A DNA stretch of 24,826 nucleotides from a virus. The translations under genes and the position numbers were made by a program. The notes beneath the pieces are model-generated. The model saw only the letters and a program-made list of their open reading frames with translations. It was not told the DNA's origin and ran no database searches. Positions 1,495 through 16,900 of the stretch are shown here, in pieces (the first letter of the stretch is position 1; each line of letters begins with the position of its first letter). The DNA is taken from positions 1 through 24,826 of the IMG/VR virus record IMGVR_UViG_3300044301_000603; one strand, written 5' to 3'.

Positions 1495-2207
1495 ATCCCA
1501 AAGACTTTATAACTCCAGTGTGTAACTTGAGTTATGCCTTTATTACTACACATAAACTATCAACCATTGAGGAGAATGATCCAAGATGGGAGATCACTGG
1601 CATCATCCCTCTTAAGGATGGCAAGGCTACTACTAAAGAAGGAGAAGCCTTTATCTCTAGCATTGAAGGGTACTTCGATGAGTACAAGAAGGAACTAAAG
1701 GCTGGTAATCCTGATAAGAAGTTCAAGCTTCAAGAGTTTATGCCCTTTGGCTATAGATACTGTGACTCTAAGACTCTTAAGTTATTAAAGAACGATGAGC
1801 TTGGTGACTTCCAAGGTGAACCAATGGAGGTTTACTTTGTTAAGTGCAAGAGGAAACAGAAGGGAGTAAACAAGAAAGATGGTTCAACCTTTGAACGTAA
1901 TGCTCCCTTACTAGCTGATGCTAATGGTGTAGAGATTTCATCTGAGAAATCAAAGCCATTAGCCAACGTAGATCCCACCTCAACAGGGAAGATAGCTTTC
2001 AATGCTTCACCCTATAACCACACTGGCTCAGGTGTAGGACTTGCACTTAATCTAAATGCAGTACAAGTAACATCATTTGTCGAATACCAAAAACAAGGGG
2101 GATCAACAAGTAATCCCTTTTCCAAAGAGGAGGGCACGTTCACGCAAGAAGACGCACCTTCATGCAACCCCTTCTCATCCTCAGATGAGGACGCATCCAG
2201 CTTCTAA
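1491..2207 (+). CDS. Single-stranded DNA-binding protein, T7 gp2.5 type
   Basis: This 238-residue protein matches T7 gp2.5 (232 residues), which coats single-stranded DNA at the fork and contacts primase-helicase and polymerase. Its position directly after RNA polymerase and before endonuclease I is the T7 position. The body has an OB-fold-like pattern of alternating beta-rich segments, including the phrase GVGLALNLNAVQVTSFVEY near residues 179-197. The tail is acidic and ends in phenylalanine (DEDASSF), the hallmark gp2.5 C-terminus that docks on partner proteins. The acidic stretch is shorter than in T7. The start ATG overlaps the upstream stop (ATGA), and I see no clear Shine-Dalgarno sequence, so translation is probably coupled to the RNA polymerase gene. 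The 3' end overlaps the endonuclease I frame. Confidence 0.9.
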   Translation: MNPKDFITPVCNLSYAFITTHKLSTIEENDPRWEITGIIPLKDGKATTKEGEAFISSIEGYFDEYKKELKAGNPDKKFKLQEFMPFGYRYCDSKTLKLLKNDELGDFQGEPMEVYFVKCKRKQKGVNKKDGSTFERNAPLLADANGVEISSEKSKPLANVDPTSTGKIAFNASPYNHTGSGVGLALNLNAVQVTSFVEYQKQGGSTSNPFSKEEGTFTQEDAPSCNPFSSSDEDASSF

Positions 2208-2571
2208 ATATAGAAGTAAGTTCGAGGCTGGTATTGCAGCCAGCCTTGACAAGCGTAGTGTCTCATTCAGTTATGAATCCCTTGTCCTTGACTACACATG
2301 GGAGGGCAGGTATAAGCCTGACTTCATTCTTCCAAACGGTGTAATCGTAGAGACAAAGGGATTCTTTTCCCCAACTGATAGGCGCAAAATGCTATGCGTG
2401 AAAGCTCAGCATCCACACTTGGATATAAGACTGTGCTTTCAAAACGCCAAAGACAAGATCAGCCGTGCCAAAAGATCTATTACTTATGGTCAGTGGGCTA
2501 CAAGAAATGGATTCAAATGGAGCAGCGGCATTATCCCTGATGATTGGTATGACTCCAACCCAAAGATATAA
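2185..2571 (+). CDS. Endonuclease I (Holliday junction resolvase), T7 gp3 type
   Basis: T7 gp3-type endonuclease I resolves branched DNA and helps break down host DNA. Counting from the ATG at 2185 (128 residues), the catalytic set is E14, D46 in YKPDFILPNG, and E56 and K58 in VETKG. These match T7 E20, D55, E65 and K67, with identical D-E-K spacing. The later phrase QHPHLDIRLCF also matches the family. I chose ATG 2185 because it leaves 13 residues before the first catalytic Glu, close to T7 (19). The frame is open back to a TTG at 2077. That would add 36 residues rich in Arg and Lys and overlap the ssDNA-binding gene by 131 bases. Neither start has a convincing ribosome-binding site. From 2185 the overlap with the upstream gene is 23 bases. 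Confidence 0.93.
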   Translation: MRTHPASKYRSKFEAGIAASLDKRSVSFSYESLVLDYTWEGRYKPDFILPNGVIVETKGFFSPTDRRKMLCVKAQHPHLDIRLCFQNAKDKISRAKRSITYGQWATRNGFKWSSGIIPDDWYDSNPKI

Positions 2572-2785
2572 GCACATCTCAATTAGAGGTGACAACACAA
2601 CTCTTGTTGATGACTATGCACTAATCGAAAAGAAAGATCGGACTGGTCGTTCTGGTAAGAACATCAAGTGTCCTGAATGTGGCCATGTTCAAAGGGCATA
2701 TCACTTGGCATGGTCAAAGTGTTTTTGTTCTGGATGCAGGCAGTACATTCCTAAATACAACGGCTGGTTAATCGACCAACTATGA
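2549..2785 (+). CDS. Small zinc-ribbon protein of unknown role
   Basis: This 78-residue protein has one recognisable element: a four-cysteine zinc ribbon, C41-P-E-C44, then C58-F-C60-S-G-C63. A basic and polar N-terminal half precedes it. It sits between endonuclease I and primase-helicase, where T7 has the lysozyme gp3.5, but it shares no lysozyme motif. A role in DNA or RNA binding, or as an accessory replication factor, is a guess from the zinc ribbon and the neighbours. ATG 2549 overlaps the endonuclease gene by 23 bases. ATG 2540 in the same frame would add three residues. The longer frame from TTG 2465 only reads antiparallel to conserved endonuclease codons and is unlikely to be translated. 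Its stop overlaps the next ATG as ATGA. Confidence 0.75.
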   Translation: MTPTQRYKHISIRGDNTTLVDDYALIEKKDRTGRSGKNIKCPECGHVQRAYHLAWSKCFCSGCRQYIPKYNGWLIDQL

Positions 2786-2904
2786 ACACTCAACAACGTA
2801 TTGACTACGCATCCAAGCGTATAGATGAATTGCGTCTACTCATTAAACACTGGGAGGAACATGAAAGAGAAAAGCAAGTACCTAAGAAAGAGTCCATGCC
2901 CTGA
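2782..2904 (+). CDS. Short 40-residue ORF leading into primase-helicase
   Basis: This ORF begins MNTQQRIDYASKR and is mostly charged and probably helical. I recognise no family. Its ATG overlaps the zinc-ribbon gene's stop (ATGA), and its last 44 bases overlap the start of primase-helicase in another frame. Within it lies the GGGAGG ribosome-binding site for primase-helicase. It could be a real small protein, or a leader whose translation opens the downstream start. The ATGA coupling and the otherwise unfilled gap argue that it is translated. Function unknown. Confidence 0.5.
   Translation: MNTQQRIDYASKRIDELRLLIKHWEEHEREKQVPKKESMP
2852..2856 (+). promoter_or_regulatory. Ribosome-binding site for primase-helicase
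   Basis: A GGGAGG-like stretch at 2852-2856 is followed after a short spacer by ATG 2861. It decides the start of primase-helicase against the alternative upstream start at 2825. It lies inside the 40-residue upstream ORF, so translation of that ORF may influence access to it. Confidence 0.7.
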
Positions 2905-4492
2905 ATGTGATAGCAAGGACAACCTCGCTTGGTTTGATGATGGTCACGCCCACTGCTTTGGATGTGGCTATCAGTATCAACCCAACAAGAAAGAAAGCAA
3001 ACCCTTTACACCTAAGAAACCTGTTATGAATCCCTTCAAGAAAGAAAAGGTAACTAAACCACTGATCCCTAAGAATCAGATAGTTTATAAAGCCTTACCT
3101 AAAAGAGGAATCACTAAAGAAACTTGTGAACTATTTGAATATGGACTGTCTGAATACAACGGCCAGCCCGTTCAAGTTGCAACCTATCAAGATCACACTG
3201 GCAAAGATGTAGCTCAACACCTCCGATTCAAAGACAAGAAGTTCATTTGGTTAGGAGATATGTCAAAGATTCAATTATGGGGACAACGCTTATGGAGACA
3301 GACTAATCAGAGTCAAGTCTTTTGTGTTGTTGCAGAAGGTGAACTCGATTGTCTTGCCGCCTCACAGATTCAAGGCAATAAGTTTCCTGTAGTTTCCTTG
3401 CCGAGTGGAGCGCAGAGTGCTAGCAAATATTTAGTAATGAATGAGCTATGGCTCGCAGGACATCTTCGCACAGTTCTATGTTTCGACAACGATCAAGCAG
3501 GTAATGACGCTGCCCTCAAAGCAACAGAAGTTTTGGCTGGAGTACCTGTCGCTATTGCACGACTGCGAGAATTTAAAGACGCAAATGAAATGCTGCTCGC
3601 AGGAAAAGGAGATGAACTTAAAGACATATTATGGAAAGCTATACCCGTTAAGCCAGAAGGAATAAGAGATAGTGCTGACTGTTGGGATGAGGTAATCAAG
3701 CAGGGTGCTGACTCTATCTGTACCTATCCGTGGCCAAAACTAAACCACATGATGCGAGGGATCAGACGTTCAGAGATGAACCTGATTACAGCAGGTAGTG
3801 GTACTGGTAAGTCCAGTATGTGTAGGGAGTTAGCTCATCACTTCCTAACTAGAGGACTGAAGGTTGGATACATAGCACTAGAAGAAAGCATCCAACGCTC
3901 ATTGCAAGGGATCATTGCAGTAGATCTATCCAAACCTATACACCTTGACTCATCCTTAGTAGAGGAGGAGGAACTAAGAGAATCCTTTGATCGTCTGTGT
4001 TCTACACACCGACTACATCTATACGATCACTTTGGTTCAATGGATCCTGATACGTTGTGTCAACAGATTCAGTACCTTGCGAAAGTAGAAGGAGTAGATG
4101 TTGTCTTTGTTGACCACATCACCATTGTGGTTAGTGGACTCGACAACGTGGACGAGAGAAGGAGTCTTGATATCACTGTCACTAAGCTCAGGCAAATCGT
4201 TGAAGCCACTGGCATAACCCTCTTTCTCGTCTCCCATCTCAAACGCCCAGAAGGGCGAGGCCATGAAGAGGGAACCAAGGTTTCGCTTAGCCATCTAAGA
4301 GGATCACATTCACTAGCTCAATTATGCGATGGATGTATCTGCGCTTCAAGAAATCAGCAAGGTGATGCCGCTGAACGTAGCGAACTGCAACTTGCTGTAT
4401 TAAAGAACCGACATTGCGGTTCAACAGGTGAGGCCGACAAGCTTCTGTACTCAGAACAAACAGGCCGCCTATCCACTCCACTATTTAATTAA
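2861..4492 (+). CDS. Bifunctional DNA primase-helicase, T7 gp4 type
   Basis: This 543-residue protein (T7 gp4A is 566) unwinds the fork and makes primers. From the N-terminus it has a zinc-binding domain (C13, C16, C32, C35; T7 equivalents recognise the primase template site) and a TOPRIM primase core with E159 in VVAEGELDC and D209/D211 in CFDNDQAG. Then come a RecA-like helicase with Walker A near 311-319 (AGSGTGKSS) and Walker B ending at D418-H419 in VFVDHIT. ATG 2861 is chosen over the upstream alternative start at 2825 because GGGAGG lies four bases before it and the protein then begins just ahead of the zinc domain. M56 follows the zinc domain and could in principle start a helicase-only form, as Met64 does in T7 gp4B, but no ribosome-binding site is evident there. 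The next gene is the exonuclease after six bases. T7 has DNA polymerase in that place. Confidence 0.96.
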   Translation: MKEKSKYLRKSPCPECDSKDNLAWFDDGHAHCFGCGYQYQPNKKESKPFTPKKPVMNPFKKEKVTKPLIPKNQIVYKALPKRGITKETCELFEYGLSEYNGQPVQVATYQDHTGKDVAQHLRFKDKKFIWLGDMSKIQLWGQRLWRQTNQSQVFCVVAEGELDCLAASQIQGNKFPVVSLPSGAQSASKYLVMNELWLAGHLRTVLCFDNDQAGNDAALKATEVLAGVPVAIARLREFKDANEMLLAGKGDELKDILWKAIPVKPEGIRDSADCWDEVIKQGADSICTYPWPKLNHMMRGIRRSEMNLITAGSGTGKSSMCRELAHHFLTRGLKVGYIALEESIQRSLQGIIAVDLSKPIHLDSSLVEEEELRESFDRLCSTHRLHLYDHFGSMDPDTLCQQIQYLAKVEGVDVVFVDHITIVVSGLDNVDERRSLDITVTKLRQIVEATGITLFLVSHLKRPEGRGHEEGTKVSLSHLRGSHSLAQLCDGCICASRNQQGDAAERSELQLAVLKNRHCGSTGEADKLLYSEQTGRLSTPLFN

Positions 4493-4498
4493 CCCACC

Positions 4499-5239
4499 AT
4501 GACTTTATTACTAGATGCCGATTGGCTTGTCTATTCATCCTGTTGTGCATGTGAGCATGACTATCGCTGGGATGAGTGGAATCATTCACTTCACTTAGAT
4601 GAGAAGGAAGTACACGAACTGATTCAATACAGAGTTGAACAGTACCAAGGTATAGCTGAAGACTCAGGTCAAGTAATCATGTGCTTCAGTGAGTACCCAA
4701 CCTTTAGACATACACTCTCTCAAGATTACAAAACAAATAGGATAGGCAAGCGCAAACCTTTAGGATTAAAGAGAGTAATAGAACGAGTCGCTGACTACTA
4801 TCACTCTGTTAGTTTCCCTAACCTAGAAGGTGATGATGTTATGTCGTTACTTGCTACCGGTGGACGATATGATAATCCAATAATTGTTTCTGTTGATAAA
4901 GATATGCGAGGTGTACCGTGTACCTTGTTAGCTAAAGATGATCTTGAATTAGTAACAAGAAAAAAAGCAGATAGAAACTGGATGTTACAAGTATTACAAG
5001 GTGATGCGACTGATAATATTAAAGGACTAACAGGTGTTGGACCTAAGACTGCTGAGAAATTGTTAGGCGATTTGGAATCACCTAAAGATATGTGGAACAA
5101 GGTACTAGAAGAGTACAAAAAGAAAGGGAGGACTTATGCTGATGCTGTTATGACTGCTCAATTAACACGCATCTTGCGTGATGGGGAGTACGATCATGTA
5201 ACAGGTGAAGTTAAATTATGGGAACCAATTTATGAATGA
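4499..5239 (+). CDS. 5'-3' exonuclease (FEN/PIN-like), T7 gp6 type
   Basis: This 246-residue nuclease belongs to the flap endonuclease/PIN-like family, as does T7 gp6 (300 residues), which removes RNA primers and degrades host DNA. Metal-binding motifs run in the expected order: D6 and D8 in LLDADWL, E110-G-D-D113 in LEGDDVM, D133-K-D135 in VSVDKD, and D169/D172 in GDATDNIKG. The last is followed by the helix-hairpin-helix segment GLTGVGPKTAEKLL. The start is ATG 4499, six bases after the primase-helicase stop, with no obvious Shine-Dalgarno. In T7 the polymerase gene 5 sits directly before gene 6, and here it is missing. The 3' end overlaps the next small gene by eight bases. Confidence 0.94.
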   Translation: MTLLLDADWLVYSSCCACEHDYRWDEWNHSLHLDEKEVHELIQYRVEQYQGIAEDSGQVIMCFSEYPTFRHTLSQDYKTNRIGKRKPLGLKRVIERVADYYHSVSFPNLEGDDVMSLLATGGRYDNPIIVSVDKDMRGVPCTLLAKDDLELVTRKKADRNWMLQVLQGDATDNIKGLTGVGPKTAEKLLGDLESPKDMWNKVLEEYKKKGRTYADAVMTAQLTRILRDGEYDHVTGEVKLWEPIYE

Positions 5240-5420
5240 AGAAGAGCTATGGCCTCCTATTGAGGAGGCTTTAATTAAGAAGTTAGATGAAATATATCCA
5301 GAGAAATGTCCTGAATTAGAAGCAAAAGATAGAGATATCTGGCATTATGGAGGTGCAAGGAGTGTAGTGCGGATGCTCATATCCGTCTATGCTGACCAAA
5401 ACAAGCTTAATGAGGATTGA
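5232..5420 (+). CDS. Small acidic protein of unknown function
   Basis: This 62-residue protein begins MNEEELWPPIEEALIKKL and is acidic and predicted helical, with no cysteine cluster, membrane segment or signal peptide. It lies between exonuclease and the gp7.3-like gene, roughly where T7 carries the gp6.x small genes. ATG 5232 gives an eight-base overlap with the exonuclease stop. A GTG at 5205 in the same frame would add nine residues but lies inside conserved exonuclease sequence. No function can be assigned. Confidence 0.7.
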   Translation: MNEEELWPPIEEALIKKLDEIYPEKCPELEAKDRDIWHYGGARSVVRMLISVYADQNKLNED

Positions 5421-5422
5421 TT

Positions 5423-5746
5423 ATGTGCGGAGGCGGAGGCGGAGGTAGTCAACCCGACAACTCGGAGATGATAGCTCTCCAAAAAGAACAAATGGAGGAA
5501 CAGAAGCGTCAGTATGAAGAACAGAAAGCAGAACAAGAGAAAAGATATGCAGAACAGAAGGCTATAGCTGAAGCACCACCAGCACCAGCGCCTAGTCCGG
5601 TAGCAATGTCAGCAGCTTCAGCACTAGAAATAACTGATGGATCTTCAGCCGCCGCACCTACTAGTCCTCTTGCAAGAAGTAAAGGATATGGTAGGAAACA
5701 ATTTAGAACAGACTTAGAAGCAGGCAGTGGCCTTAACATCCCATAA
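5423..5746 (+). CDS. gp7.3-like virion or tail-assembly protein
   Basis: The protein has 107 residues. An N-terminal MCGGGGGGS run is followed by a charged Glu/Gln/Lys segment with a repeating EEQK-like pattern (about residues 18-50), which looks like a coiled coil. Then comes a Pro/Ala-rich linker. The C-terminus, GRKQFRTDLEAGSGLNIP, resembles the end of T7 gp7.3 (GRKKxxxSLSVARSSGGGINI), a small virion protein needed for tail assembly and adsorption. Its place directly before the portal is also the T7 7.3 position. ATG 5423 is preferred over an alternative start at 5417 because GAGGA at 5412-5416 is spaced six bases before it. The second-residue Cys is not part of a lipobox. The stop abuts the portal ATG (TAAATG). 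Confidence 0.75.
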   Translation: MCGGGGGGSQPDNSEMIALQKEQMEEQKRQYEEQKAEQEKRYAEQKAIAEAPPAPAPSPVAMSAASALEITDGSSAAAPTSPLARSKGYGRKQFRTDLEAGSGLNIP

Positions 5747-7513
5747 ATGGAACTAACACTAACTACTGATGTTGATGCAGTAGAAAAAAAATATGTTGAA
5801 GAGAAAGGTAGTGGCACTGCCGCTGCTAGATATCAACAACTTTGCACAACTAGAGATCCTTATCTTCAAAGGGCTAGAGATTGTAGCAAAGTAACTATCC
5901 CTTCTCTTGTACCTGAGACTCACCTTGGAGATCATGGCAGATTAAAGACACCATACCAATCAGTAGGTGCACGTGGTCTAGGGAACCTGAGTACAAAACT
6001 AGAGCTTAGTCTCTTCCCTCCTAACTCTCCTTTCTTTAAGTTAGAGATAGATACCCTTCTCTTACATGGTGAAGATGTAGATCCAAAGATGAAGACAGAA
6101 CTAGACACTGCCTTGGTAAAGGTAGAGCTAGCTGTAATGACAATGCTTGAGACTATGAGCGCACGTGCTTCAATGCACGAAGCATTCAAACAGTTGATAG
6201 TTGCAGGCAATGTTCTTCTCTATGTAAATCCAGAAGGCATAAGAGTTATACATCTTGATAGATATTGTGTAGTACGTGATCCAATGGGATCTATTACTGA
6301 GATTGTTATTGAAGAAGAGGTATATCCTGAAGCATTACCTGAAGGATTCTTGCCTGATGATGTAACAACTGAGGAATCAATAGGCCCGACTAAGAAATCA
6401 GTAAAGATACATACATGTGTACATTATGAAAATGAAAAATGTTATTGGTATCAAGAAGTAAAAGGTAAACAAATAAAAGGAACATCAGGTATGTGTCCTG
6501 AAGAGTGCTCTCCTTTTATCGCATTGAGGTGGGAGCGAATTGATACAGAAGAATACGGACGTTCATATATAGAACAGTGGTATGGAGATTTAACAGCACT
6601 GGAATCTCTTTATCAAAGTGTGCTTGAAGCAAGCGCAGCTATGAGCAAGGTGTTGTTCATGGTTAATCCCAATGGAACTACACGACCACGCACATTAGCT
6701 AATGCTGCCAATGGTGCGATAGTTCAAGGATCAGCTAATGATGTCACTGTCCTTCAAAGCCAAGGGAAACTTAATGACTTGCAACTAGCTTCTAATACTA
6801 TTGATCGGATTGAATCACGTTTATCATTTGCTTTCCTTTTAAATACAGCAGTACAAAGAGCAGGTGAAAGAGTAACAGCAGAAGAGATTAGATATATGGC
6901 ACAAGAACTTGAGACTTCAATCGGTGGTTTGTATTCCATCCTGACTCAGGAACTACAACTACCTTTAGTTAGAAGGTTGATGTATATATTGCAGAAGCAA
7001 AGAAAGATTCCAACAATGCCTATGAGTGAGAAGACTGGAGAAGCAATGGTTAATCCTAAACCTGTTACTGGACTTGAAGCTATTGGTAGAGGTGATGATA
7101 GAAATAAACTTGTTGACTTTATAAGTACAGCACAACAGGCTTTAGGTCCAGAGATAATGATGAAGTATATAAATATGGATGAAGCACTGCGAAGACTAGC
7201 AGCTAGTGCTTCAATAGATACAACTAACTTAGTTAAAACATCTGAGCAACTACAACAAGAAGCTCAGGCTGCTTTGCAAGAACAACAACAACAGCAGCAA
7301 CAAGAACAAATGGCTGCTTTAATGCAGTCATCAGCCGCAGCACAAGCGGTTAAAAACTACACAGCAGAAGGAGCACCCTATGGCCCCCAATACGCAGCAG
7401 GACTTAACCCCTCCGAAGAAAGCACCCAACCCAACGTCCTCCCAGACGGATTCGCAGCAGGTGAAGGCCTCCCCAGTGGAAACACAGGCGGCGGAGAAGC
7501 CCCCCCAGCCTAG
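5747..7513 (+). CDS. Portal (head-tail connector) protein, T7 gp8 type
   Basis: This 588-residue portal (T7 gp8 is 536) would form the dodecameric ring through which DNA is packaged and leaves. Family signature segments include PYQSVGARGLGNLSTKLE at about residues 69-86, followed by LFPPNSPFF, and the central ERIDTEEYGRSYIEQWYGDL region. A late helical region follows with AGERVTAEEIRYMAQELE. The C-terminus is an extension with a run of seven glutamines (Q513-Q519) and a Gly/Pro/Ser-rich tail. The final 134 bases also encode the start of the next gene in another frame. The start ATG touches the stop of the gp7.3-like gene, suggesting coupled translation. The portal is followed by scaffold, as in T7. 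Confidence 0.95.
   Translation: MELTLTTDVDAVEKKYVEEKGSGTAAARYQQLCTTRDPYLQRARDCSKVTIPSLVPETHLGDHGRLKTPYQSVGARGLGNLSTKLELSLFPPNSPFFKLEIDTLLLHGEDVDPKMKTELDTALVKVELAVMTMLETMSARASMHEAFKQLIVAGNVLLYVNPEGIRVIHLDRYCVVRDPMGSITEIVIEEEVYPEALPEGFLPDDVTTEESIGPTKKSVKIHTCVHYENEKCYWYQEVKGKQIKGTSGMCPEECSPFIALRWERIDTEEYGRSYIEQWYGDLTALESLYQSVLEASAAMSKVLFMVNPNGTTRPRTLANAANGAIVQGSANDVTVLQSQGKLNDLQLASNTIDRIESRLSFAFLLNTAVQRAGERVTAEEIRYMAQELETSIGGLYSILTQELQLPLVRRLMYILQKQRKIPTMPMSEKTGEAMVNPKPVTGLEAIGRGDDRNKLVDFISTAQQALGPEIMMKYINMDEALRRLAASASIDTTNLVKTSEQLQQEAQAALQEQQQQQQQEQMAALMQSSAAAQAVKNYTAEGAPYGPQYAAGLNPSEESTQPNVLPDGFAAGEGLPSGNTGGGEAPPA
7367..7373 (+). promoter_or_regulatory. Ribosome-binding site inside the portal gene
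   Basis: GAAGGAG at 7367-7373 lies six bases before ATG 7380. It is one of the best Shine-Dalgarno matches on the plus strand, and it supports the nested start of the 83-residue protein. Confidence 0.6.
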
Positions 7514-7631
7514 TGGTGTAAAGGAGATCACTGTCCCTAAAGAAGCTACTATTCAGAAGACTGGTAAAAAGAAATCAGATCAACCAAAGCTCAGCAAGAA
7601 TGCTGAAACAGGAGAGATTACTATTTCTTAA
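7380..7631 (+). CDS. Small Pro/Lys-rich protein starting inside the portal gene
   Basis: This 83-residue protein begins MAPNTQQDLTPPKKAP. It is hydrophilic, rich in Pro, Gln and Lys, and probably disordered. I recognise no family. Its ATG lies within the portal gene, and 134 bases are read in two frames. A strong AAGGAG-type site at about 7368-7373 stands six bases before the ATG, which supports real translation. The 118 bases after the portal stop are otherwise unexplained. The dual-coded stretch is clearly richer in C and G than its surroundings. Position between portal and scaffold suggests a capsid-assembly or minor virion role, but that is inference only. Confidence 0.65.
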   Translation: MAPNTQQDLTPPKKAPNPTSSQTDSQQVKASPVETQAAEKPPQPSGVKEITVPKEATIQKTGKKKSDQPKLSKNAETGEITIS

Positions 7632-7666: not shown

Positions 7667-8482
7667 ATGCCTGAAGCTATTACTATTAAGGAAGATCAAG
7701 TTGAAGCACTATCTTCTGAGAACAAAGAACAATTAGAACAGTTAGATAAGACAGAACTAAAAGATAGTCCTGCCGATCTTTCTACTAAAGAACCACAACA
7801 AGAAGAAAGAAAATTAGCTGGTAAGTTTGATTCAACTGAAGCTTTAGAGAAAGCTTATGAAGAACTACAACAGAAGATGAGCAAGGGAGAAGAAACTCCT
7901 GAGCAAGAATCAACTGAAGAGAAACCTCAGTCAGCTAAAGAAATCTATGGTGACTACATAGGTGAGCGCTTTGATGAGGCAGGTATTGAATATGTTGAGA
8001 TGAATGAGCACTTCCAAAAGGAAGGAACATTAAGTGATCAACACTTTGAAGAACTAAACAAAGCAGGATTCACAAGAGATGTTGTTGAGTCTTATCTTGC
8101 TGGCATCCAACAAAAGAGTGCAGTAACAGAACAACAGATCTATGACATCAAACAAGAATATGGTGGAGATACTGGCTACTCAAACATGATGGACTGGGCT
8201 GGCCAAACTTTATCTGATGCAGAGAAGAACGCCTTTAGTGTTGGTATTAATAATCCAAACATTGAAGTCGTAAAGCTAACAGTTGAAGGATTACATAGTA
8301 AGTATATTAAAGCTACTGGTACTGAGCCTCAGTTAATAGGAGGCAAGAAACCTTCTACTCCTACTGAGAGATTTGAATCATACGATCAATTAACTAGAGC
8401 AATGCAAGATGAGAAATATGCAACTGATCCTGCATATAGAAAGATGGTTGAAAGAAAAATTGCTAACTCTTCTATCTTCTAA
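7667..8482 (+). CDS. Capsid assembly scaffolding protein, T7 gp9 type
   Basis: This 271-residue protein is very acidic and Glu/Gln-rich, with long helical stretches, as expected for a scaffold that templates procapsid assembly and then leaves. The C-terminal segment, with FESYDQLTRAMQDEKY and DPAYRKMVERKIA, matches the conserved end of T7-like scaffolds, which contacts the capsid protein. Position after the portal agrees. A 35-base gap separates it from the upstream gene. That gap holds a run of seven T (7657-7663) and no Shine-Dalgarno sequence, so how this gene is translated at high level is unclear. In T7-like phages the major capsid gene follows on the same strand. Here the next gene is on the opposite strand, and the two coding regions overlap by 11 bases at their 3' ends. 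The protein looks complete. Confidence 0.9.
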   Translation: MPEAITIKEDQVEALSSENKEQLEQLDKTELKDSPADLSTKEPQQEERKLAGKFDSTEALEKAYEELQQKMSKGEETPEQESTEEKPQSAKEIYGDYIGERFDEAGIEYVEMNEHFQKEGTLSDQHFEELNKAGFTRDVVESYLAGIQQKSAVTEQQIYDIKQEYGGDTGYSNMMDWAGQTLSDAEKNAFSVGINNPNIEVVKLTVEGLHSKYIKATGTEPQLIGGKKPSTPTERFESYDQLTRAMQDEKYATDPAYRKMVERKIANSSIF

Positions 8483-8690
8483 AAGGCGCTGGCATTTGTG
8501 GGGCTGGTGTAGGTAGAGCTGGCCCTGATAAATCAGGTATCTGTATCGACTTAGTTACTTGCTCTATTGCTTTCTGCATTAAGGCATCCTTGTTTCCTTG
8601 GAACCAGAAGAAGCCATACGCCCCGCCACCAGCAATTGCTAAGACTCCAATACCTGAAGCAACTGCAATAGTATCAATAATTTTTCTCAT
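8472..8690 (-). CDS. Small single-pass membrane protein
   Basis: This 72-residue protein begins MRKIIDTIAVASGIGV. It has one hydrophobic, glycine-rich membrane segment at about residues 8-30, a short helical stretch and a Pro-rich tail (PTPAPQMPAPFRR). Similar small membrane proteins with a Pro-rich tail are common near tail genes in marine cyanophages. A holin-like role is possible but not shown. GGAGG lies ten bases before the ATG. The start overlaps the stop of the upstream 59-residue gene. It is the last gene of the minus-strand block and overlaps the scaffold stop tail-to-tail. Confidence 0.75.
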   Translation of the reverse strand: MRKIIDTIAVASGIGVLAIAGGGAYGFFWFQGNKDALMQKAIEQVTKSIQIPDLSGPALPTPAPQMPAPFRR

Positions 8691-8866
8691 TTGTCTGCTG
8701 CCTCCGGCGTATTACCTGCATCTAACCATTCCTTATAGAAAATATAATCCTTATTATCATCATCAAATGGTATAGAAGCACCATCTTCTTTTCTTAGAAT
8801 CATGTTAGTTAATGGACCATCTAACCTCTTGTTATATATTTGTTTGTATGTGTACGTTGGGTTCAT
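8687..8866 (-). CDS. Small 59-residue tail-region protein
   Basis: A 59-codon frame on the minus strand fills the gap between the 484-residue fibre gene and the membrane protein. It begins MNPTYTYKQIYNKRLDG and ends in a DYIFYKEWLDAGNTPEAAD segment. That ending resembles a widespread phage tail-associated small protein whose C-terminus reads roughly DYxxYLxWLxxGNTPxPAD. Its start overlaps the upstream stop as ATGA, with a GAGG site about seven bases before, and its stop overlaps the next ATG as ATGA. Both overlaps strongly support it as a real gene. The function of this family is not known to me, though a link to tail fibre assembly is plausible from position. Confidence 0.8.
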   Translation of the reverse strand: MNPTYTYKQIYNKRLDGPLTNMILRKEDGASIPFDDDNKDYIFYKEWLDAGNTPEAADK

Positions 8867-10317
8867 AGTTCTGCCTCTGCTTGATAATGGAAGTACGATT
8901 CATTGGCTTGGTTAGCAGCTCCTAGTGTCATACCTAGAAGTGCCATGTTAGGTCCAGCCTGAACAACAGTAAGAGTTACAGCAACGCTGGTACCTCCTGT
9001 ACCTTTATAAGTATGTGCTGTACCAGTTGCACCAGTATTTGCATTATATACAGTTACTGTTGGGTTCCCTCGTTTGGTAACCATAAGAGGGTAGCTAATA
9101 GCAGTTACTGTGTCATCACTAGCAATAAAGTTTTGAGCACAAGGTTTAGAAGTACCAAATGAATATACTTCGTTAAAGTTATGGCCGGGATAATATCCGG
9201 GTGGGTAAGAATTTTCGTAATATCTTTGGCATTCAGCTAACTCCGTAGCTATTGGCCTCAATTCAAATGGTGTTGCTTCACCTATTTCAAGTTGTACATC
9301 ACCTATGCTGAACCAATCATTAGCACCTGCTGTTCCTACTGGAGTAAACTGGAACGAAACTGTCATCTGAGTCTTATCATCTGGAATGGTATGTGTATGA
9401 GTAAATGTCTGAACTGAAGTAGTAAGAGTATTACTCTGTGAATTAGTCTCACTATTAGTCATACCGACTGGGTTTTGGTCAGTACCTTCTCCAGTACGAA
9501 TAGAACTTGTCATAACACTAGATGCATTCGAATAGTTTGCACCACATTCTGCTTTGAAGCTAAGTGTTACTTTCTTACCAGCAAATATATAAGAGTCTTT
9601 ACTTTCAAGACCTTGACATACTCCAGTTGGGTTTACTTGAGACGTACCATTATTTCTTTGGACTCTCAAACAATAACCACTATCATAAGCTATAGCTGAA
9701 GTCTGTTGACTTACAGTAAGATCTAATGCTCCACCATAACTTCTCCATCTATCGCAAGGTCCATAAGTGTTAATAGTACTATTTGTCGTTCCGCGTTGTG
9801 CGATTCTCATGCTTCCATTGATCAGGTGGTTGCGTCTACCTAATCCATAAGTACCTTTAACATCACCAGTTACATTGACACCAGTTGCAGTGGTTTTAAT
9901 CTTCTCGACATTATCATGGTATAGATGTACTGCTCCATCTCCAAAGCAGTCAATACTTTTCTCACCAGCTTTAGCTTGGATGTAGATATTCCCACCACTA
10001 TCTTCTATGTATAAATCACCTGTTGTATTCCTGAGACTACAGTTAGTTCCATCGTGTCTAAGATAAGCATCTGCATCACTACCTAAAGAAACTTTAACAC
10101 CATCTGAAAACTCTAAAGAATCATCTGATTCGTCCCAATTAAGATCTTTACCAGAATTACTTTGATTTAAAAATTTTACATCACCAGTAAATATGCCACC
10201 TGCCAGAGGCATGGCACCTGATATCTTACTAACTGTTATTGCCGCATCAGCTTTAATGTCAGCGTTAACAATAGAACCATCTTCTATACCGCCAGAATTT
10301 ACTTTAGTGAGTGCCAT
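8863..10317 (-). CDS. Tail fibre-like structural protein with carbohydrate-binding-like domain
   Basis: This 484-residue protein starts MALTKVNSGGIEDGSIVN, an opening common in marine cyanophage fibres. Residues about 40-155 hold beta-rich repeats such as YLRHDGTNCSLRNTTGDLYI and LYHDNVEKIKTTATGVNVTG. Residues about 160-360 begin RNHLINGSMRIAQRGT and end around DVQLEIGEATPFEL and ATELAECQRYYE. This layout is seen in many cyanophage putative fibre proteins and resembles carbohydrate-binding jelly-roll folds. The last 120 residues are Thr/Gly-rich. A role in binding host surface glycans is inferred. It lies downstream of the gp17-type fibre and shares a module with it. No Shine-Dalgarno is evident in the eight-base gap upstream. 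Confidence 0.75.
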   Translation of the reverse strand: MALTKVNSGGIEDGSIVNADIKADAAITVSKISGAMPLAGGIFTGDVKFLNQSNSGKDLNWDESDDSLEFSDGVKVSLGSDADAYLRHDGTNCSLRNTTGDLYIEDSGGNIYIQAKAGEKSIDCFGDGAVHLYHDNVEKIKTTATGVNVTGDVKGTYGLGRRNHLINGSMRIAQRGTTNSTINTYGPCDRWRSYGGALDLTVSQQTSAIAYDSGYCLRVQRNNGTSQVNPTGVCQGLESKDSYIFAGKKVTLSFKAECGANYSNASSVMTSSIRTGEGTDQNPVGMTNSETNSQSNTLTTSVQTFTHTHTIPDDKTQMTVSFQFTPVGTAGANDWFSIGDVQLEIGEATPFELRPIATELAECQRYYENSYPPGYYPGHNFNEVYSFGTSKPCAQNFIASDDTVTAISYPLMVTKRGNPTVTVYNANTGATGTAHTYKGTGGTSVAVTLTVVQAGPNMALLGMTLGAANQANESYFHYQAEAEL

Positions 10318-10325
10318 AGTTTTAG

Positions 10326-10625
10326 TTAATCAGGTTTCGGATACTTAGCTTTGACAGGATCGACTATATCTGTCTTCCACTTATCAAGTCCGTTATGGTA
10401 AATATAATCTAACTGTGTACCAAAATCTGGATACTCTCCAAGCCGTTTCATTTTATAAGATTCTTTTTCATTTAACCTTGTATGTTCTGTATTAATCGCA
10501 TCTTCAGCAGGTTTAGTACCTGATATCATTCTTAGATCTTCATACTTACGATCCTTTCCATCCCATACAAATTCTGCATTTGGTAAAAGACTTAGTAAAG
10601 CATCAGCTTTTGAATAGTATTCCAA
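10326..10625 (-). CDS. Small fibre-associated protein, possible tail fibre assembly factor
   Basis: This 99-residue charged protein ends with PDFGTQLDYIYHNGLDKW and a KYPKP tail. That C-terminal pattern recurs in small proteins placed next to phage tail fibre genes, and some are thought to be fibre chaperones. The frame has no ATG near its beginning. The likely start is TTG at 10625-10623, which has GGAG about eight bases before it, inside the end of the upstream gene. The next in-frame ATG is codon 33. It sits between the 148-residue protein and the second fibre, which fits an assembly or attachment role. Exact function unknown. Confidence 0.7.
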   Translation of the reverse strand: MEYYSKADALLSLLPNAEFVWDGKDRKYEDLRMISGTKPAEDAINTEHTRLNEKESYKMKRLGEYPDFGTQLDYIYHNGLDKWKTDIVDPVKAKYPKPD

Positions 10626-10627
10626 AG

Positions 10628-11074
10628 TTAACTCTCCAATTCAAAGACTGTAATTGAACCAGCAGCACCAAAGGTTGCTGTACCTAATCCACCACCATTA
10701 TGTTTTTTAAAATTAACTGCATAAGTTAACTGGTTAGTAGTAGTTGGACTATCTAGATGAACACTATACATTGGCATTAAAGCTCTAATACCACCGGGGT
10801 TGGCATACGCTCCACCAGTATGTATTTCAGTTGTAGTTGTAGTCGTGTGATCATACCTAGTAATTTGAAACAGTCCATTACTTGATCCTGTTTGCATAGT
10901 ACCAGCTGTTTCCATGATCACTAAAAATTTACAAGCATTAGATTGAGGGGTGAGTGAAACTGAATGTCCTGTTAGTGACTGATAACTATCGCTAGTAATA
11001 TCTCCACTAAAAGTACTTGTTGCCATACGAGCAACAGCTTGTGATAGTTCTACACTCCCGACGAAAAGACCCAT
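10628..11074 (-). CDS. Small beta-rich virion-like protein
   Basis: This 148-residue protein begins MGLFVGSVELSQAVARM and is Thr/Ser/Gly-rich with an alternating beta pattern throughout, typical of a fibre tip or decoration protein. It has no signal peptide or membrane segment. A strong GGAGGT site lies about seven bases upstream of the ATG, and the ATG shares one base with the stop of the 938-residue fibre (TAATG). Coupling to the fibre suggests a fibre-associated structural role, for instance a distal adhesin, but no family is recognised. Confidence 0.65.
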   Translation of the reverse strand: MGLFVGSVELSQAVARMATSTFSGDITSDSYQSLTGHSVSLTPQSNACKFLVIMETAGTMQTGSSNGLFQITRYDHTTTTTTEIHTGGAYANPGGIRALMPMYSVHLDSPTTTNQLTYAVNFKKHNGGGLGTATFGAAGSITVFELES

Positions 11075-13890
11075 TATGATACCTCCGTTAAATTAAATTT
11101 ATACTTCTTACCATTTCGTTTGTTAATCAAGAAGAGTTCCTCAGCTCCTTCTTGTATAGTATAACTCCCCCATGTACCGTCAACATCATTAGACGATCCT
11201 TCATTAGATAAGTTTAAGTCATTCGTATAGATGTTGGCCCATCCATTAGAAGATGATCCTAAGTCTCTAGTATTATTAGCTTCTGGTATTAAGTTTCCAG
11301 TTACAGTAGCACCAGCGGCTGATGTCTCCAGTTTCTTAACATTATCATGGTACAGCTCACACGCTCCGTTAGCTAAAAATCTTGCTCCAGTTTCATTACC
11401 TTGAACAGTAAAATTTATATTGCCACCACTTGTTAAAGTACCATCAGCACCTATCCTCAAATCAAAGTCATCTGAAGCAGGGGTTTTTAGATCAATAAAT
11501 GCACCTGTCGATCCACCAATTTCAAGCGATCCTAAGCCATTTGTAGCTGTAAAGTAGGCACTTAAATTACCACTTGTATTTTCTACAGTTAAATCATCTG
11601 CTGTTACTCTTCCAGTTACATCTATTCCAGCACTTGTTGTTTCAAATTTTTTAACATTATTATGATTCAATTCTACAGCCCCATCACCAATGAACTTAGC
11701 CATTGTTTCGATGGAAGTTCCATTGTTTTGAATATGTATTTGCCCTGATGCAGTGCCTGATCTCAGTACACCTTGAGTTCCATCAGAGAAAATAATCATT
11801 TCTCCATACGTTCCATCTCCAAGTTTTACACTTACGTTATCGTTAAACTGAACAGCATTATTACCACCTACCATTGTTACATCAGACCAACCGATACCTT
11901 CAGTTGATCCATCCTTCTTTAAGTATTGTCCTGTACTTCCTGTATTACTTGTATTTAACTTAGCTAAATCAATTGTTCCTGCTGATGGAGTTCCAATATT
12001 AACTGTTGATCCAATTGTAATAATAAAGAACGGAGCACCTGTAGCTGGAGCAGCAGCTAATTGAAGAGCAGATCCATTGAGACTAAAGCCTTCTGATGGA
12101 AAACCACTACCTGAATTTGGCTTTTGAATTACACCATTAATACTTACAATTAATTGTTGTGCTACAGAAGGAGGATTGCTAAGAGTAAACTTCCTAGCTG
12201 TTCCATTAAATGTTGCACTACCACCCGGAGGATTATCACTTCCACTACCTAAACTTGATAGTGTATTTATAAAGAACTCACCAACAGATACGACCTCATC
12301 CCATGCGTTATTGGCTGCATTTCTGACATACATTTTGTCAGTATCTTGACTAAAGAATAGATCTCCAGCGTCATTATCTGATGATGGATTACTACCTGTT
12401 GCTGTTCTATATCTATTGTTGAAGTCATTAATATCATCTGACAACCGTTCTACATCTGCTTCTTTCGCAAGAACTTTATGATAAGTATAAGTATGAAGCG
12501 TTGTTGTAGTTTGAACTTGCAGTCCTATACCTGTTCCAAGTGTCTTGCTTTGTAGAGAAGAAGGGAATCCATTAATAGTTACGGTATTACCAGTGCCAGC
12601 TCCATTGGCAATAGTTGCGACTCCACTTCCATTAACAACAACACCACCTGCATCTGAAATAGATACAACTGTTCCAGCTCCATCGCTCGGATCTGGGTTG
12701 GTAGCAGGGAAAGAAGTCTCATTTGAAATTGCAACGAACCCTCCTAAGGCATTCGTTACAGTTAGAATTCGATCATTTACTGCTTTAGAAGTTGGGAACT
12801 CTGTGTCGCTATTGCTTGTAAGAGTAGTGGCTTTAGTCATGCCACTTACTACGTTTAAGTTTGTAGTAGTAGCAGTGACTCCATCTAATTTATTTAGTTC
12901 TGCTGTAGAAGAATTGAGTCCAGATAAAGTATTAAGTTCAGCAGTTGAAAGAGTTGCTCCGTCTAAAATTGCAACCTCACCTGATGTAAGTAATGCAATG
13001 TTTGCTGATGCTCCAGCTTGACAACCAGCAAGATTAGTTAGGTCAGCATCTAAAGGCTGCTTTGCATCTAGCTGTGTTTGTAATGCTGAAGTAACACCAT
13101 CAACAAAGTTAAGTTCAGCAGTTGAAAGAGTTGCACCATCAAGTATCTGTGCTTCAGCTTGAGTTAGATCAGCCAACGCAGCGGCTGTATCAGAACTCAT
13201 AGTTGCTAGTTCTGTTAACTCTGCATCTAGTGGCTGCCTTGCATCGAGTTGAGTCTGGACATTAGAAGTAACACCATCGACATAGTTAATCTCTGCTGTT
13301 GTAGCAGTTACCCCATCAAGAAGATTTAATTCAGTAGTGGTAACTGTTGCGCCATCTAGGATTTGGACTTCTGTATTAGTCAGATCAGCAAGAGAAGAAG
13401 CTGTACCTGAACTCATCGTTGCTAGTTCTGTTAGTTCAGCATCTACTGGCTGCGTTGTTGTATCTACATAGTTCTTTGTCGCTGCATCCTGTGCTGCTGT
13501 TGGATCAGAAACTTCAGTTAACTTTTGACTTCCTAATGTTGGTAGACCTGTACTAGAACTAATAGATATACCTTGCTTAAGACTGTCATCTAACTCTTGT
13601 GCAATATATAAATGCTGAAGATTACTGGTATCTAAATCACTAGCAGTAAGAGTCGAACCATCTGCATAATCAACAAGAACAGCAGCAGGAGGAGTAACTC
13701 GTCTAACTTCAACACGTGTACCAGAAGCAGGGGCACTAGCTAATCGTGCCGTAGTTGCATTATGGAAGGTAAAGCTAGTGTCTACATAGTTAACATAGAC
13801 TTTTACATGTGCTTCCTTAATGTAAGGAAACGAGATTGTGTAATCGGTTTGGCTACTCCCTGCTGAGTAGATGGTGTATGCGTAGGCCAT
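11074..13890 (-). CDS. Tail fibre protein with T7 gp17-type N-terminal domain
   Basis: This 938-residue fibre has an N-terminus (about 1-105) matching the T7 gp17 tail-attachment domain. The phrases VEVRRVTPPAAVLVDYADGS and LTASDLDTSNLQHLYIAQEL parallel T7's ELRRVTSTTDRLVDFTDGS and its following helix. Residues about 148-350 hold three diverged repeats with starts at P148, P220 and P279 (core ELTELATMSS, ILDGAT, ELNxxDGVT, QTQLDAxQPLDA). Later come a segment with GDLFFSQDTDKMYVRN, then two modules of the form LYHDNVKKxET-x-GxxVTG, and a C-terminal end DLNLSNEGSSNDVDGTW. The shaft is probably trimeric and the distal part would contact the host, by inference. The start has no Shine-Dalgarno but lies just after a duplicated stop region of the upstream gene, so reinitiation is possible. 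At 938 residues it is much longer than T7 gp17 (553). Confidence 0.9.
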   Translation of the reverse strand: MAYAYTIYSAGSSQTDYTISFPYIKEAHVKVYVNYVDTSFTFHNATTARLASAPASGTRVEVRRVTPPAAVLVDYADGSTLTASDLDTSNLQHLYIAQELDDSLKQGISISSSTGLPTLGSQKLTEVSDPTAAQDAATKNYVDTTTQPVDAELTELATMSSGTASSLADLTNTEVQILDGATVTTTELNLLDGVTATTAEINYVDGVTSNVQTQLDARQPLDAELTELATMSSDTAAALADLTQAEAQILDGATLSTAELNFVDGVTSALQTQLDAKQPLDADLTNLAGCQAGASANIALLTSGEVAILDGATLSTAELNTLSGLNSSTAELNKLDGVTATTTNLNVVSGMTKATTLTSNSDTEFPTSKAVNDRILTVTNALGGFVAISNETSFPATNPDPSDGAGTVVSISDAGGVVVNGSGVATIANGAGTGNTVTINGFPSSLQSKTLGTGIGLQVQTTTTLHTYTYHKVLAKEADVERLSDDINDFNNRYRTATGSNPSSDNDAGDLFFSQDTDKMYVRNAANNAWDEVVSVGEFFINTLSSLGSGSDNPPGGSATFNGTARKFTLSNPPSVAQQLIVSINGVIQKPNSGSGFPSEGFSLNGSALQLAAAPATGAPFFIITIGSTVNIGTPSAGTIDLAKLNTSNTGSTGQYLKKDGSTEGIGWSDVTMVGGNNAVQFNDNVSVKLGDGTYGEMIIFSDGTQGVLRSGTASGQIHIQNNGTSIETMAKFIGDGAVELNHNNVKKFETTSAGIDVTGRVTADDLTVENTSGNLSAYFTATNGLGSLEIGGSTGAFIDLKTPASDDFDLRIGADGTLTSGGNINFTVQGNETGARFLANGACELYHDNVKKLETSAAGATVTGNLIPEANNTRDLGSSSNGWANIYTNDLNLSNEGSSNDVDGTWGSYTIQEGAEELFLINKRNGKKYKFNLTEVS
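12836..13449 (-). repeat. Three diverged tandem repeats in the tail fibre gene
   Basis: Three copies of a roughly 60-72 codon unit start at codons 148, 220 and 279. Each opens with a P-x-D-A-x-L-T-x-L-A phrase and contains ILDGAT followed by T/S-x-ELN. Copies 1 and 2 are closest to each other, and copy 3 is more diverged and lacks the MSS segment. Copies 1 and 2 also end alike (QTQLDARQ/QTQLDAKQ). This is likely the fibre shaft. Repeats of this kind can change length by recombination. Confidence 0.75.
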
Positions 13891-13893
13891 AGG

Positions 13894-13917
13894 TTAAGCG
13901 ATGAGTTAAGCGATGAG
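13894..13917 (-). repeat. 12-base tandem duplication spanning a stop codon
   Basis: The unit CTCATCGCTTAA (minus-strand reading) occurs twice in direct succession at the end of the 3132-residue gene. Each copy reads Leu-Ile-Ala-stop in the same frame, so the gene has two consecutive in-frame stops 12 bases apart. The fibre ATG follows four bases after the second copy. It looks like a recent slippage duplication. Confidence 0.85.
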
Positions 13918-16900
13918 TGCCCTCCATGCTTCAAGGTTACTCTGTGGTCCTAGGTTATCAGTTGTTGCATTTCTTTCCCAGTTAAATTGATCTTGTTCAT
14001 CCTTCATCTCTTGCAACTCAGGATGCCTATTGAAGAATTCCTCGATTGCTAGTTTTTTATATAGATTAATTGTTTCCATTAAATAGTTAACCTTCTCTCC
14101 GGGGCCATGAATGTTTGGTCGTTGTAGATCTCTCTTGTCTCCGGGAATGACAACATTACCCATATCTCTTTTCCCTGCATAAACTGGAGACTCTCTAATT
14201 ATTCTAGATAATTCTTCATGCAATGTAAGACCATCACTATTTTTTATCTCTTTAGTTCCAATAGTAATCAACTCATTCAATTCTTTAGTAGAAAGAATAT
14301 AGTTAGATAATCCAAGCATTCTCCTATCCCATATAACAAACGATGAATTCTTACCAGTTAATCGTGCCATCTCTTCATCGACTATATCTGTAGATTGATT
14401 CCTAACTTTCAATGCACCTAATGGATTCAATACACCATTAACCATTTTGAATGGGTCCCATAGATATTGACTTAAGCCTGAGCCGAGATGTCCATCTAAC
14501 ACAATAGGTTCACCTGTTATTTGATGTAAGACAGCAGGCTGATTACGAGAGGAATAAGGAAGCTTTGCTCCAATTCTATTCATAGTATTTATCAATGTAG
14601 CCACTGGTCCCCAAGCTTCACTCTCTTCTATTCTTCGTAGTGTTGGATCTACCGAATTAGTTATATCTTGAACAACACCCGGAACTATCATTCCACTTAA
14701 CAATCTCTCTAGCCATACACCAGCAGCACTGGACTTTCCTCGAATATGACGATGATCTCTAACATCAGTTATATCTTGGAATAGCTCAAACAAATCAGCT
14801 ATTGGTTTTATCGTTGCATCGCCAAAGGGAGTTAGCCCTGCTTTAAAGATTGCATTTCTTAAAGCTGCTACATGGATTCCCATCATGGCAGTCAAGTCGT
14901 CATTACCATCATTTCTTTCACTGTGTGGGATTCTATCTAGTTCTGTTATATAACTACCGATGATTGCAAGGATAGGAGATGCAGCATCAAAAGCACCTAC
15001 ATTTACCCAAGGACCAGCACCACCCCAAGGGAACTTAAGCCTAATACTATTTGCTTGCTTTCCAATATTTTTCCACTTTTCTCTTTCTCTCCACTCAATA
15101 GGTTCAGGCCCACTAAATTCCAACATTCCACCTACTGCTACCAATGTTCCTGACGCAAGAATGAATTGACCAATCGCATGTTCTCCTAGTGCATTGGCTC
15201 TAATGTTTGCATCCTCATGATTTATATCTCTCCATGCACTATCAATAATATGTTCACCTAATCCCACATAACGAACGGTTGCTTTGAATAGATTTATTAA
15301 AGTTCTATTAGTAGGAATAACTGCACCTGTTATAGGGAATGCCTGTTCAGTTTCTTTGATCTTCTGTGATATGTGAGGTATGGCTTTTCTTGCAGTATGG
15401 AATGCAGCGTTAACTTCTTTATTAGCAAAGCCTTTATAAAAATTCTCTTCATCAACGTTTGCCTTTACAAATTCTTCTGCGAACTTAACTTTTTCCGCAG
15501 CATCAACAATACCTTGTTCCTCTGCTTTCTTGATTCCATAACGCCATGTTCTTTGTTCTGGATCAACCTTAATTTCATCTGTCATGTTTACATAATTCAT
15601 CCCATTCTGTGCATACTTACTATCTAAATAAGCATTCTCTATTAGTTCACCATTGATAATCATATCAACCCATTTAGATTTTATTTGTTTCTCTACTTTC
15701 TCTACAGCTAAGTTAAAGTTTTTCTGAGTCGGCATGATTCCTTTCGCTCTCATATTATGTAGTTCTAATTCAAGTAGTCGAGCGTGTTCAAAAGCAGGAC
15801 CACCAACTCCGCTAATGAATGTATCTACAGCAGATAATCCTTTACGTGCACCTGTTTGATATAAGAATCTAGTAGGTGCAAATTTATTCATATAACGAAT
15901 AGCTAAAGCAATTGGATTAGCAGTTGGTTTATCAAACCAGTTAGCAGTAGGCGACTCTCTTTTAACTAAAGCCCTATCTGTACCAGCCGCTTCAAATTCT
16001 TCTTGTGTTAATAAATTACCAGCTTTATCTTGAGCCTCGAATTGTTTTACTCTTGCATCCTGATAATGTTGTTTTCCGGGATTAACTAAAGCCTCTCCTG
16101 TCTTCCAAGCAAATCCTGACAATCTCCAAGCATTAGGAATTTCATAGAACATCTGTCTCCATAAACGCATATCAATTGCCTGTCTAACCTTTGCTGACTC
16201 TGCTTCAAAGTAATTACCTTTTGCCATTGCTTGCTTATACATTTTCCCATTACCTATATATCTAGCAATTGGCATGGCAAGTAATCTAGTCGTACCAGCC
16301 AACGCAACCTTGCCCCATGTACTCATCCTTAAGAATAATGCGTTACGTCTAATGTCTGCAATAGTCCTCTGGAAGCCCATACCATCAGGGATCTCAGTAA
16401 TTAGATCACTAACATCTTTGATGTAGAAAGTAGAATCTTTCTTCGGTAATGTATTCATTGTGTATGCAACTTCTGCTAACTCATCAATAACCTTTTCTGC
16501 CTCAACAGTAAGCTCTCCACTTTGAATTGATTTAAGTACATCTGGTGGTAACTTCTTCTCTAATATCTGTCCAGCATCTCTAATAGCTCTTTCTATAAAT
16601 GGACGTAAAGCATCGTTACCTGCATCAACATCCATAGATGGAGGTTGTGCTGCCTGAGAGTTAATAACTCTATTCGCATCATTACGATCATAAATAACAA
16701 CTCGATCTCCAACTGATTCAGTCTTTAAATCAGTCGGGAATCTAACCCCGTCATATCCTTTTTCTAGAGCATAGTTTTGTATGCCTAGTTTTTGGTCAGT
16801 ACTTAAGATTCCACCTTTAATAACTGGATTAAGACCTATCTCTTCTAAAAACCCAGAAAGAGTTTTACCTTCTCTAACAAGATCAAGGATGACTATGCTA

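Follow-up and report, generated by a model that had tools for sequence, protein, structure and literature searches.

Convergent gene arms in a T7-like marine phage clade point to a derived inversion of the block from the major capsid gene to a membrane-protein gene

T7-like genomes are explained by an entry into the cell that is coupled to transcription and by a timed, one-way expression of their genes. The window analysed here, an IMG/VR virus record of 24,826 bases (IMGVR_UViG_3300044301_000603), breaks this direction directly behind the scaffold gene, where the far end of the structural block follows on the other strand. This raises the question if the junction is real and, if so, how a T7-like phage came to carry its late genes in reverse. 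With a probability of about 0.83 we attribute the layout to a derived and fixed inversion from the major capsid gene to a membrane-protein gene in a T7-like, MPP-C-related clade without DNA polymerase, the block being flippable as an autonomous transcription unit.

The plus strand of the window starts with a T7-type single-subunit RNA polymerase (1-1494, 5' end outside the window; phrog_414, 6e-139; 60% identity to the P-SCSP1u polymerase). A gp2.5-like ssDNA-binding protein (1491-2207; phrog_112, 1e-14), the gp3-like endonuclease I (2077-2571; phrog_945, 2e-40), a gp4-like primase/helicase (2825-4492; phrog_239, 2e-160) and an exonuclease (4499-5239; phrog_107, 1e-56) follow in the gene order of P-SCSP1u. 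Between exonuclease and portal stand the two small conserved genes f1 and f4 (5205-5746), with homologues in P-SCSP1u and relatives; a DNA polymerase gene is absent there, as in MPP-C. The portal (portal/head-tail adaptor, 5747-7513; phrog_449, 4e-166) and the scaffolding protein (7667-8482; phrog_1052, 3e-52) complete the rightward arm. The gap between these two is filled by a small conserved plus-strand gene (7380-7631), which overlaps the 3' end of the portal in the +1 frame. Its frame is open in the 18 relatives checked beside the window, and an ITIS/ITIK-like C-terminus occurs in nearly all relatives checked; in P-SCSP1u no gene is annotated at this position.

All further genes of the window lie on the minus strand. 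A 72-aa protein with a single membrane helix (8472-8690; phrog_568, 3e-11), termed TM in the following, is the final gene of the inverted block. It is joined by the 59-aa f20 (8687-8866), which has a homologue in the complete relative G001 and adjoins TM in the uninverted contig L298. Next are a fibre-like protein (8863-10317; phrog_4492, 6e-47), two small tail-associated genes of 99 and 148 aa (10326-11074; the first with phrog_9114, the second with no phrog match) and a tail fibre of 938 aa (11074-13890; phrog_13518, 1e-182; phrog_21412 tail fibre, 2e-94; 39% to P-SCSP1u gene 24). The gp16-position internal virion protein of 3132 aa (13906-23304) has 28% identity to P-SCSP1u gene 23 over about 1600 aa (4e-154), and the gp15-position protein (23308-24825, 5' end outside the window) matches its counterpart in G001. 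Both assignments were made via synteny with P-SCSP1u and G001. In the 3132-aa protein a weak ParB-type HTH was seen at residues 887-973, under the Pfam cut-off, with a phrog_21 match at 760-961. The capsid gene itself lies beyond the right edge of the window and is known only from relatives. Open reading frames, coordinates and strands agree with the earlier note: portal and scaffold on plus; membrane protein, fibres, gp16- and gp15-position proteins on minus.

Scaffold and TM overlap tail-to-tail by exactly 11 nt (8472-8482), the length that had been reported before. L002, a relative, has an overlap of 11 nt as well, and L004 has one of 4 nt. The plus-strand AT skew is +0.23 before the junction and -0.10 behind it, the pattern to be expected of coding strands that have long been settled. 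A search of IMG/VR with the scaffold returned contigs at 83-91% scaffold identity. Six of them (3300030107_001140, 3300030116_000956, 3300030333_001647, 3300030333_000615, 3300030376_001552 and 3300031774_000929) carry the same junction of plus-strand scaffold and minus-strand TM, which makes seven contigs of this type B with the window. A variant of the junction without the membrane protein was found in 3300020472_000328 and 3300030328_003716. The window contig is metagenomic and includes one of the two junctions, so that a scaffold-end contig fused to the reverse complement of a fibre end might be considered. We give next to no credence to this reading. The same junction recurs in similar but distinct sequences from five other samples, the second junction is present in nine contigs, and one closed contig carries both. 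Because independent contigs share the junction, the chimera is rejected; the earlier note had already called the ends neater than a chimeric assembly would lead one to expect. The tail-to-tail junction of scaffold and TM is confirmed as real.

The closed contig is G001, with 41,227 bases and a portal 97% identical to that of the window. Its ends overlap by 333 nt with 324 matches (97%), so the map is closed and the genome essentially complete. The rightward arm runs from the early genes and the RNA polymerase (full-length, 791 aa) through portal to scaffold. The leftward arm, listed from the junction, consists of TM, fibres, gp16, gp15, g21, g20, gp12, gp11, capsid, g31, f6, f2, terL and terS; it is broken up by f7 and f8, two small plus-strand open reading frames. 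Apart from the main convergent junction, the map has a single main divergent region, which separates terS from the early genes. From the window alone it had been predicted that the block from capsid to fibres is cleanly inverted, with a minus-strand capsid gene past the right edge. In G001 the major capsid gene is indeed on minus (21021-21998), and the sought tail tube genes gp11 and gp12 are likewise minus, as are gp15, gp16 and fibre. Two convergent arms, a rightward one with early, replication, portal and scaffold genes and a leftward one with terminase, lysis-like, capsid, tail and fibre genes, are hereby shown to meet between scaffold and TM. Among the small genes f2 was identified as DUF6450 (Pfam); a Pfam search of TM, g31, f6 and f7 gave no match.

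Among annotated phages the 17 P-SCSP1 strains, phages of Prochlorococcus, come nearest, with 43% identity for the scaffold, about 61-62% for the portal and 78% for the capsid. They are the nearest sequenced isolates for all three proteins, and in the portal tree the window phage stands on a separate branch. Short DNA stretches of the window fibres are 76-80% like Prochlorococcus phages; the phage is uncultivated. The P-SCSP1 strains belong to the MPP-C clade, described as lacking DNA polymerase (PMC9860041). As a refinement of the T7-like assignment, gene content would place the phage near these cyanopodoviruses without DNA polymerase. In G001, too, no unassigned open reading frame has the size of a DNA polymerase gene. 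Common to both are RNA polymerase, SSB, endonuclease I, primase/helicase, exonuclease, portal, scaffold, a giant internal protein, the absence of DNA polymerase (PMC9860041) and a terminase on the opposite strand. P-SCSP1u carries RNA polymerase, SSB, endonuclease I, primase/helicase, exonuclease, portal, scaffold, capsid, gp11, gp12, internal proteins and fibres on its plus strand and the terminase on its minus strand. The comparison of synteny with cyanopodoviruses that had been proposed thus separates the two: P-SCSP1u is collinear, its capsid-to-fibre genes sharing the strand of portal and scaffold, and in the clade of the window they are opposite. The genomes also differ in size, with 37.9 kb for P-SCSP1u and about 40.9 kb for the inverted type.

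Of the features of T7-like phages (Autographiviridae), the single-subunit RNA polymerase, portal and scaffold are found in the window and capsid, gp11 and gp12 in G001. The one-strand structural order is lacking, since the genes from capsid to fibre oppose portal and scaffold; this order is usual and not by itself a taxonomic criterion. Classical T7 and the marine MPP-A/B cyanopodoviruses have homologous portal, scaffold, capsid, tail tube and RNA polymerase, but are collinear. Marine cyanopodoviruses have been called 'highly syntenic' (PMC4646655). By eye, portal and capsid share a strand in each of the 43 annotated phage records common to the top-60 lists of the two proteins. No report of this arrangement, or of any inversion in cyanopodoviruses or Autographiviridae, was found among the open-access papers searched.

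The direction of the change was examined with a portal tree of 90 rows and a capsid tree of 62 rows. In the former all inverted portals (types B and D) form one clade with an SH-aLRT of 100 inside the collinear genomes, and in the latter the B and D capsids occupy one side of a branch with a support of 96. Architectures among the 76 labelled portal rows are collinear in 61, inverted in eight and of a further class C in seven. The inverted state was found in all close relatives with a visible junction, and no collinear genome with more than 74% portal identity occurred among the relatives examined. Since the inverted genomes nest in collinear ones and all close relatives with a visible junction are inverted, the inversion is taken as derived and fixed. 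One could also imagine the inverted layout as ancestral, or as imported when modules were exchanged with another group of phages, for instance a cobavirus-like phage with two arms; two-arm T7-like marine phages do exist (PMC6775973). The nesting in the portal tree, the grouping in the capsid tree and the 78% identity of the capsid to that of the collinear P-SCSP1u make this highly improbable. Tree positions and capsid identity instead mark the block as native.

The breakpoints of this derived inversion can be read from gene orders. Close collinear relatives have, 2-5 nt behind the scaffold stop, a conserved promoter-like element with its leader and then the capsid gene. Where the block is inverted, the antisense tail of TM directly adjoins or overlaps the scaffold stop, and element and leader are intact 5' of the flipped capsid gene. 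On the other side TM lies between fibre genes and f7 in collinear relatives; the uninverted contigs L292 and L296-L298 have the order fibre genes, TM(+), f7(+), g31(-), f6(-), f2(-), f8(+), terL(-). From this order the right break of type B falls between TM and f7. The comparison thus shows the left breakpoint to be at most a few bases from the stop codon of the scaffold gene and the right one to be in the gap between TM and f7. The predicted capsid-to-fibre inversion stands, with its end refined to just after the membrane-protein gene, and the minus-strand terminase was already on that side in the ancestor. In variant D (L023, L024/L102, L101 and L295) the left break is as in B, but TM was left behind beside f7. 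The flank 5' of the capsid promoter is common to B and D, and the lysis-side genes of the uninverted L298 are nearer to B than those of D are. B and D may go back to a single inversion, after which TM was moved, or to two that occurred separately. In L024 (3300030328_003716), the f7-g31-f6-f2-f8 cassette by terL (1507-5029) is flipped, a small additional inversion when compared with the closely related L023 and L295.

The differing arrangements of this block among related contigs could also be produced by a programmed invertible segment, which a recombinase flips so that both orientations coexist. However, a comparison of the 600-bp regions around the two junctions of G001 gave no exact word of 9 nt or more in common, be it direct or inverted, where random pairs usually yield more. 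G001 has no recombinase-sized unexplained gene, and the inverted state is uniform among close relatives with a visible junction. We hold such a switch to be very improbable. As inverted repeats are absent at the flanks, an evolutionary rearrangement is favoured, and the inversion would have joined module boundaries through recombination that was illegitimate or otherwise poor in homology. It may have been tolerated because it left every gene and operon head intact.

Rearrangements of another kind were found in class C (L070, L095, L054, L116, L117, L120, L122 and L126). Here terL is followed by f1, f4, portal, scaffold and capsid, all on the strand of the terminase and against that of the RNA polymerase, and terL stands beside the portal on one strand in eight contigs. 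As in the window, replication and structural arms are opposed through an inversion in these contigs (e.g. IMGVR 3300006751_000077 and 3300030090_004705). In contrast to the window, the inverted segment extends from the genes before the portal to the gene beside terL and leaves portal, scaffold and capsid undivided. At least three changes are required for class C on the portal tree. Because it arose repeatedly, inversions between operon boundaries are regarded as recurrent in this group.

What travelled with the block was seen on the 5' side of the capsid gene. No genome has the motif GGCCCNYTGCGNNGGAYACC more than once; it stands on the strand of the capsid, shortly before the capsid start, and is present in arrangements A to D. 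P-SCSP1u and L023 deviate from the exact pattern by one or two bases, yet align. A scan of IMG/VR with this motif alone gave 73 new loci. A capsid gene, down to 31% identity, lies downstream in 69 of them; the other four are truncated, and three of these begin a capsid-like reading frame. In all 54 distinct MPP-C-like capsid upstream segments, inverted ones included, TAnnnT stands 12 or 13 nt ahead of the first A of the leader. This spacing is that of a sigma70 -10 box to its start site, which suggests a host-type promoter; no -35 box was shown. The candidate leader RNA comprises about 110 nt with GGCCCNYTGCGNNGGAYACC as core and covarying helices, directly 5' of the major capsid gene (L010:19074-19223 and more than 100 other loci). 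It is conserved in many marine T7-like phages whose capsid proteins are just 31-35% identical. A five-helix model, drawn by hand on the very alignment used for its evaluation, gave 27 double-change cells where shuffles gave 9.5, and 90% paired cells against at most 50% when slid. Automatic RNAalifold recovered six pairs and no more, and single-sequence folding of the leaders was not better than shuffles. In Rfam no family reached the gathering score, with E-value hits at chance level. By eye, several collinear relatives have a terminator-like hairpin with a T-run between scaffold and promoter-like element. Taken together, the alignments show a conserved -10-like element and an apparently structured leader that moved with the block.

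These observations are consistent with a capsid block that acts as an autonomous transcription unit, with a sigma70-type promoter and a start at the first base of the leader, and that would be readable in either orientation. A block that looks self-contained in this way could explain why the flip is tolerated, probably since it retains its own promoter. Late proteins would then come from the leftward arm without a dedicated terminator at the convergent junction. The scan for terminators and promoters at the junction of scaffold and TM remained at background level; with no terminator-like site between the arms, convergent transcripts may overlap. The earlier note had called for separate late promoters or else a circular or alternate-end layout. 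The first part is borne out by the conserved promoter-like element and leader 5' of the capsid, and the second has become needless.

The position of the leader could instead hold a promoter for the phage RNA polymerase. The polymerase gene is present, and T7 and LUZ100 have such a local promoter for the phage enzyme at the capsid gene (PMC10134795). Nevertheless, a search for a repeated T7-like or phage promoter motif across the genomes checked gave none that was convincing genome-wide, bar a local cluster in one collinear relative. Furthermore, the conserved TAnnnT covers -12/-7 and not -4/-1, the position of TATA in the T7 promoter. Hence, we regard transcription of the capsid block by the phage enzyme as unlikely. 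In the collinear A_G013 (3300030372_001081), near-repeats of TCTTATAGGGGG at 35693-35790, 5' of terS, resemble a T7-type promoter start (TATAGGG).

The nearest architectural parallel is given by the cobaviruses, T7-like roseophages with opposed replication and structure arms, between which a bidirectional terminator is reported (PMC6775973). Two arms with opposite transcription directions are common to both. In cobaviruses the arms are split into replication and structure; here portal and scaffold remain in the replication arm and the split lies between scaffold and capsid. Moreover, the window phage keeps a T7-type RNA polymerase gene, and the bidirectional rho-independent terminator of cobaviruses is unmatched, the arms meeting in an 11-nt gene overlap. 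The phage has a T7-like genome with two convergent arms, a layout known from cobaviruses, but with its split at another place.

A wider proposal would be that cyanopodoviruses without DNA polymerase and their kin repeatedly invert promoter-led late modules at operon boundaries, and that a host-type capsid promoter with an undescribed structured leader frees the late genes from the rule of T7 that they are read in the same direction as the DNA is drawn into the cell by transcription. We put it forward tentatively, at clearly less than even odds. The capsid leader RNA is a separate lead. For the family, a stable clade with about 23 kb flipped between scaffold and terminase side, together with the further, independent inversions in relatives, means that the T7-like order is not obligatory. 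With the flip it becomes testable which polymerase transcribes the late genes and by what means the right-hand genome part gets into the cell.
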